Source: Azospirillum ramasamyi
GTDB lineage: Bacteria > Pseudomonadota > Alphaproteobacteria > Azospirillales > Azospirillaceae
Assembly (NCBI RefSeq): GCF_003233655.1
Contig: NZ_CP029829.1
Coordinates: forward strand, 1,064,978 to 1,128,977
DNA: 64,000 bases
Direction of reading: 5' to 3'
Shown here: positions 54,507-54,652 of the stretch, one piece after another
Numbering within the stretch: the first letter of the stretch is position 1
How the letters are laid out: every line of letters starts with the position of its first letter
The notes under the pieces: model-generated
The model's database searches: none
Told to the model about the DNA's origin: nothing
The model's input: only the letters and a program-made list of their open reading frames with translations
Translations under genes and position numbers: made by a program

Positions 54507-54652
54507 GTCCCCGTGGGGGACGGATTGCCGATGTCCCCAGAGGGGACGGAATTGTCCTGGTCCCCCAGAGGGGACGGAATAGTCCTTCTCCCCAAAGGGA
54601 AGGGAATGTCCGCCTCCCCATAGGGGAGAGATGTTCAACGTCCCCCGAAGGG
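54507..54652 (-). repeat. array of six tandem short hairpins in the pyrG leader
   Basis: Six copies start at 54507, 54533, 54560, 54588, 54614 and 54640 (period 26-28 nt). Read toward pyrG each copy is a 4-6-bp stem such as GTCCCC-TCT-GGGGAC, followed by a spacer like NNGGACAATTC. Spacer GGAC can also pair with the GTCC of the next stem, so alternative folds are possible. The array lies between the secG terminator and the pyrG start, i.e. in the pyrG promoter or 5' leader. No known riboswitch or attenuator class matches. Confidence 0.85.

Follow-up and report, generated by a model that had tools for sequence, protein, structure and literature searches.

What is a row of small hairpins doing in front of the gene for CTP synthase, and does it work as RNA, as DNA or not at all? 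The window (the whole 64,000-nucleotide stretch of DNA analysed here) comes from a genome of Azospirillum and carries such an array on the pyrG (minus) strand, between the secG terminator and pyrG; an earlier note had proposed a nucleotide-responsive leader, and also a variable-number repeat or a protein-binding array. The locus matters for three reasons. Across species it provides a natural series of 1, 3, 4, 5 or 6 hairpins before a CTP synthase gene, with the junction site counted, and its conserved arms and hypervariable loops offer a direct test of whether a tandem repeat can become a folded spacer. It also exposes the question of how transcription of pyrG is started in Azospirillum, which lacks the -10-like TANNNT that several sister genera have near the ATG.

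Layout of the secG-pyrG interval

Read on the minus strand, the order is secG, a terminator, a predicted hairpin termed P1, the array (54507-54654) and pyrG. The secG gene (54762..55118; PF03840, E 3.9e-19), encoding a preprotein translocase subunit, is followed by an intrinsic terminator at 54690..54722 with an 8-bp stem (GAGGCGGC/GCCGCCTC), the loop CTCCCCGAA and the U-tract TTTCTTTT, and the stem pattern was identified in 45/45 species. The CTP synthase gene pyrG occupies 52844..54475 (PF06418, E 4.4e-123; PF00117, E 1.4e-40), with its ATG at 54475, which places the array between secG terminator and pyrG as the earlier note had it. P1 (about 54648..54689) lies directly 3' of the terminator U-tract, and its sequence differs widely between species. 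The first 58 nt from the start of the U-tract had a mean z of -1.59 against shuffles, with z below -1 in 32 of 45 species; the window's own sequence gave +0.34, so that P1 in the window species rests on comparison with relatives.

We identified mini-hairpins at all six sites claimed, at plus coordinates 54507, 54533, 54560, 54588, 54614 and 54640 when the minus strand is read, and the spacings given for them (26, 27, 28, 26 and 26 nt) are exact. Five are ordinary copies: unit 1, the pyrG-proximal one (54507..54521, GTCCCC-CAC-GGGGAC), which was compared over 16 species and has a hypervariable loop; unit 2 (54533..54547, GTCCCC-TCT-GGGGAC); unit 3 (54560..54575, GTCCCC-TCTG-GGGGAC, with a 4-nt loop); unit 4 (54588..54602, CTTCCC-TTT-GGGGAG, with one U-G pair); and unit 5 (54614..54628, CTCCCC-TAT-GGGGAG). 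The sixth, on the secG side (54640..54654, GACCCT-TCG-GGGGAC), is a weak hairpin with one A-A mismatch and one U-G pair that overlaps the 3' arm of P1; because it is weaker and its 5' arm is common to the P1 hairpin, we regard it as the ancestral junction and not as an ordinary copy. The exchange of GTCCCC/GGGGAC for CTCCCC/GGGGAG in the stems is present in the window and recurs across species, and the spacer ending GGAC-AATTC, described for every unit, holds for some spacers and not for all. Between unit 1 and the pyrG start lies a near-invariant block, ATGGAACAGCTCTCAAGCTCTTCGGACGGAC (54476..54506), whose last 30 nt showed 3 parsimony changes over 16 species.

Predicted fold and repeat structure

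Of 200 dinucleotide shuffles of 54500-54652, 199 folded less well than the segment itself (z -3.39). The idea that each spacer GGAC pairs with the next GTCC to give a chain of bistable elements fared poorly in that form, with 4 bp set against a 6-bp stem, although alternative pairing of another kind exists. From the U-tract to the ATG, the minimum-energy fold joins neighbouring palindromes with each other at -101.1 kcal/mol, compared with -76.3 kcal/mol when only pairs up to 20 nt apart are allowed. Tandem Repeats Finder recovered the array with periods of 27-28 and scores up to 109, the head-to-tail tandem arrangement of a variable-number tandem repeat. The motif TCCCCNNNGGGGA, with at most 1 mismatch, occurs 9 times in the window (5 of these in the array) versus 5.2 expected, a number reached by 7 of 100 shuffles, and its exact form was found at 24 places in the genome versus 6 for the reversed control. 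The tandem arrangement, and not the single motif, is the unusual feature.

We rejected an element repeated elsewhere in the genome, as the 288-base region matches only itself, and also a coding function, as unit lengths of 25-28 nt, read from the sequences, shift the frame between copies and species; it is unlikely that the open frames running through the array represent genes.

Distribution of the array

We compared pyrG upstream regions in all 45 Azospirillum species, with one genome per species; pyrG was present in 45 of 45, and an array was called when two or more units were found besides the junction site. Arrays of 2-5 units plus the older junction site were identified at pyrG in 16 species (L001-L013 and L015-L017), and the other 29 of 45 carry pyrG without an array. 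In a nucleotide tree built from the pyrG genes of 30 of these species, the 16 and L014 form one clade with support of 100/99; the other 15 species are all array-free. Of the 17 species in this clade, 16 have the array at pyrG, compared with 0 of the 28 other species of the genus. L014 (genome G026), which lies inside the clade, has a single site only, reflecting either loss of the array there or separate gains elsewhere.

A two-unit RNA model recovered, at pyrG, the same 16 species and no other. Run over 82 genomes of the family with strict filters and 72 candidates scored per genome, it gave a match at E <=0.01 in 31 genomes, 16 of them at pyrG; the strongest of the remaining matches were in G066 (1.6e-6) and G018:C6 (1.3e-4), and the rest were 8e-4 or weaker. 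A strict two-unit pattern search matched 8 of 45 genomes, 6 of them at pyrG, and its three non-pyrG places were G004:C4, G018:C6 and G033:C8. In the sister genera, no array was seen by eye in the 18 readable of 20 pyrG upstream regions. A similar pair of mini-hairpins was seen in a different genus of the family (L223, G066:C291:15698-15746), upstream of a gene that is presumably the one for ribosomal protein S7, named by eye from how its start reads.

Origin and copy number

The possibility of a variable-number repeat, raised in the earlier note, was borne out between species, with 2 to 5 array units over the 16 species. The window has 5 units, L002 has 4 and L003 has 2, despite PyrG proteins about 99% identical to that of the window (identities to the window's PyrG were 98.9% in G036 and 97.4% in G034). 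Successive units in L005 are nearly identical, which points to recent duplication as judged from the sequences. The array is a young tandem repeat whose copy number varies.

The array-free clade member L014 has a single CCCTTCGGGGAC at the junction site, where its sequence reads GACCCTTCGGGGACATGGAACAGCTCTC. In the array species, units of about 26 nt separate two halves of this site: the P1-side half resembles that of L014 (in the window, CCTTCGGGG), and the pyrG-side half is the same as in L014 (in the window, GGGGACATGGAACAGCTCTC). Tandem duplication of this junction would be the simplest account of how the array arose. A different tandem duplication was observed at the same place in L054 (G014), where GGGTCTTCGGACG stands twice before pyrG.

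Pairing and rates of change

Over 45 array units from 16 species, 246 of 270 cells were Watson-Crick pairs, 11 were G-U and 13 were neither. With shuffled partners the mean was 222.2 Watson-Crick pairs (sd 3.1) and 0 of 10,000 shuffles reached 246, and with the 17 distinct arm pairs only, 86 of 102 cells paired versus 76.3 when shuffled, with 3 of 10,000 reaching 86; as the units are related, these shuffle counts are not probabilities. Pair types seen at the outer position include GC as well as CG, and those at the second position TA as well as CG. Loops as registered were 3 nt long in 40 of the 45 units and 4 nt in 5, a variation that a hairpin tolerates. A second count used 16 two-unit rows drawn from these data; in it 94.8% of cells were paired, and the covariation score exceeded that of each of 500 shuffles and of every slid version, whereas two of the five measures were unremarkable, with pairs changed on both sides at 53 of 500 shuffles and further pair types at 442 of 500. 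Pairing has therefore been kept through paired changes, as in a conserved RNA hairpin, among copies that are related to one another. Wobble pairs by strand, counted over distinct arm pairs, were 6 U-G versus 3 C-A or A-C, which does not clearly favour the sense strand.

For the pyrG-proximal unit over 16 species, parsimony gave 4.0 changes per site in the loop, and 0.50 and 0.17 in the two arms (0.33 together), with a permutation p of 0.002 for arms versus loop. The flank ATGGAACA had 0.38 changes per site and the last 30 nt before the ATG 0.10; as a reference, pyrG itself had 0.89 at its fourfold sites (260 sites) and 0.052 at first and second codon positions. Arms that change at less than the fourfold-site rate are constrained, and the loops change at more than that rate, possibly as a result of exchange among copies. 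Together with the paired changes in the arms, the hypervariable loops agree with the view that the fold is conserved rather than the letters, and the rate pattern is as would be expected of a maintained hairpin.

Promoters and transcription of pyrG

No sigma-70-like promoter was identified on either strand of 54440-55160, which leaves no G- or C-rich initial transcript to name. There was likewise no strong terminator 3' of the array, and after P1 we found only a weak terminator-like match at 54619-54602; the scan had a loop limit of 8 nt, and presumably for that reason the secG terminator, with its 9-nt loop, was unlisted. TANNNT is absent between terminator and ATG in 42 of 45 Azospirillum species, whereas 9 of the 18 readable regions from sister genera (L191, L192, L194 and L201-L206) have it precisely at -14 to -9 of pyrG, with GAAACT in a tenth, suggesting that pyrG mRNA would be leaderless there. 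Among the promoter measures only this contrast separates Azospirillum from the sister genera; with the two sigma-70 hexamers added together, the best match was 4-7 of 12 in Azospirillum and 4-8 of 12 in the sister genera, with no separation.

In 17 of the 29 array-free Azospirillum species (L024-L030, L046-L049, L051-L053 and L055-L057), we identified GGAAC-N16-GTCTTC with GTCTTC at -14 to -9 of pyrG, a motif that we take to resemble an ECF sigma promoter. Its exact form was found in 0 of the 16 array species, all of which have CTCTTC at -14 to -9. The sequence TTGAGG-N17-GATGTT, a 7 of 12 match to the sigma-70 hexamers, lies inside P1 in L008, L012, L014 and L017 of the array clade, the window's best match being 6 of 12, and may be considered a weak candidate for a start upstream of the array. 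If the ECF-like promoter serves pyrG, the array would be upstream DNA and outside the pyrG mRNA; otherwise pyrG may use read-through of the secG terminator or the weak start in P1, and the array would then be in RNA.

Terminator loop and pyrG upstream block

Of the 45 species, 21 have CTCCCCGAA as the terminator loop and the others a variant of it. In 26 of the 29 array-free species the loop can pair over 6-8 nt with a TTCGGGGA-like block at -45 to -30, and in L018 and L019 loop and block both differ and still match. When the whole upstream region was allowed, the best partner of the loop lay elsewhere in 12 of 29 array-free species (at -56, in P1, in 10 of them), and the same was true of 14 of 16 array species. 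For many species, between 20 and 150 of 300 shuffles did as well. The loop/block helix had 86.3% of its cells paired, and 47 of 500 shuffles reached the covariation score of the whole structure. The pair count covers 24 of 27 distinct array-free rows; L051 and L052, which are close to retained rows, the rearranged L054 and the non-pairing L060 were left out, and the omission of L054 and L060 flatters it. This complementarity may serve as a second lead, and a weak one. It is highly improbable that the whole secG-pyrG interval is one RNA element, in which the terminator would attenuate read-through into pyrG, its loop UCCCCGAA would pair with UUCGGGGA near -40 across P1, and the array would be a lineage-specific, multiplied GGGGA strand tuning that contact, with copy number as the dial.

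Explanations of the array

The reading that we tentatively prefer, at somewhat under even chances, is that the array grew by slippage and has been kept folded as a passive structural spacer, not as a metabolite sensor. Comparison of the species suggests that, in an ancestor within Azospirillum, about 26 nt where P1 meets the conserved pyrG start block underwent tandem duplication; copy number then changed, as it does between species, probably by slippage or recombination. The copies would have been kept as mini-hairpins of up to 6 bp, with the arms conserved and mostly paired and the loops and spacers free. The likeliest reason would be that the stretch is transcribed, by polymerase reading through the secG terminator or starting at an unmapped site; the paired C4 arms would then keep untranslated RNA from offering a C-rich single strand to Rho or nucleases, and the paired G4 arms would prevent G-runs from interfering with the pyrG start. 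Several observations count against a passive spacer: the ECF-like motif, which 17 of 29 array-free species have downstream of where the array would be, would exclude the array from the pyrG mRNA if it is the promoter; the wobble counts may equally suit DNA palindromes; two of the five measures of the second count are unremarkable; and 13 of 270 cells are neither Watson-Crick nor U-G.

A repeat without function, whose copies are made by slippage and whose palindromes are preserved by recombination or template switching, is a rather unlikely explanation. It would account for copy numbers that vary among species with PyrG about 99% identical to the window's, for the nearly identical successive units of L005, and for loops that outpace fourfold sites, as exchange between copies could produce; however, exchange alone would let the two arms drift jointly, and the inner C4/G4 is nearly fixed, with arm changes below the fourfold-site rate. 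That near-fixed core in a near-perfect C4-N3-G4 palindrome could also suit a DNA element, in which a regulatory protein would bind the palindromes upstream of a putative pyrG promoter in the conserved block adjoining the ATG, where the GTCTTC of GGAAC-N16-GTCTTC in 17 of 29 array-free species occupies the -14 to -9 place of the TANNNT of sister genera. We consider this unlikely, since the dyad centre is 3 or 4 nt, the outer pairs change in a paired way and the exact ECF-like motif occurs in 0 of 16 array species. A CTP-responsive leader, in which polymerase pausing at C-tracts or alternative pairing of units would alter read-through or translation of pyrG, has in its favour the position before the CTP synthase gene, the strong alternative long-range pairing predicted and a precedent in Firmicutes (PMC4448216). 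It is very doubtful here, and the proposal of such a leader was not supported: no sigma-70-like promoter, and none with a G/C initial run, was identified in 54440-55160, nor was a strong terminator identified 3' of the array, and 29 of 45 species of the genus have no array.

Comparison with known systems

In pyrG of the Bacillus subtilis type, transcription starts at a G-run with a C after it, and the promoter scan of 54440-55160 in the window gave no such start site. Control of that type consists of CTP-sensitive reiterative transcription and attenuation, and the switch is a terminator between start and gene (PMC4448216), whereas the only strong terminator in Azospirillum precedes the array. 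The two have in common G- or C-rich runs before pyrG and an intrinsic terminator in the same intergenic region. Multi-hairpin leaders bound by CsrA/RsmA have repeated hairpins with GGA, and the Azospirillum array resembles them in its repeated hairpins and in the GGA of many spacers. A CsrA-regulated leader was rejected, with no CsrA gene found in the window's genome and the family detected in 3 of 14 control genomes, and so was a known riboswitch or RNA family, as none of 15 Rfam matches up to E 10 in 54000-55300 reached its gathering score. Literature searches on Azospirillum pyrG or secG gave nothing on the array by title among the matches listed, and those on tandem hairpin leaders found none; in the main text of PMC7685610, pyrG, secG, leader and UTR each have 0 mentions.

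A wide scan for the C4-N3-G4 pattern gave at least 116 stretches, of which 80 loci were compared. Besides the Azospirillum one, at least 16 of the 80 have clusters of at least 3 C4-N3-G4, mostly 22-33 nt apart, and a pyrG search of the 80 loci matched only two Azospirillum loci, among the matches listed; such arrays therefore arise without pyrG. The kind of array is thus already known, and what makes this one of interest is its placement before pyrG, the copy series and the rate pattern. Like the Azospirillum array, the repeats in Burkholderia sp. D-99 (L150), Candidatus Altiarchaeales (L113) and Westiellopsis (L116) are C4/G4 tandem mini-hairpins mostly 22-33 nt apart, but they lie away from pyrG, have other spacers and in part overlap open reading frames; the Azospirillum array also differs in that its diverged copies keep pairing and one site is held through the clade. 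Tandem C4-N3-G4 clusters were observed in unrelated bacteria and an archaeon (L150, L104, L113, L116 and L121), and among six tandem clusters inspected more closely, overlap with open reading frames was seen in some and not in others.
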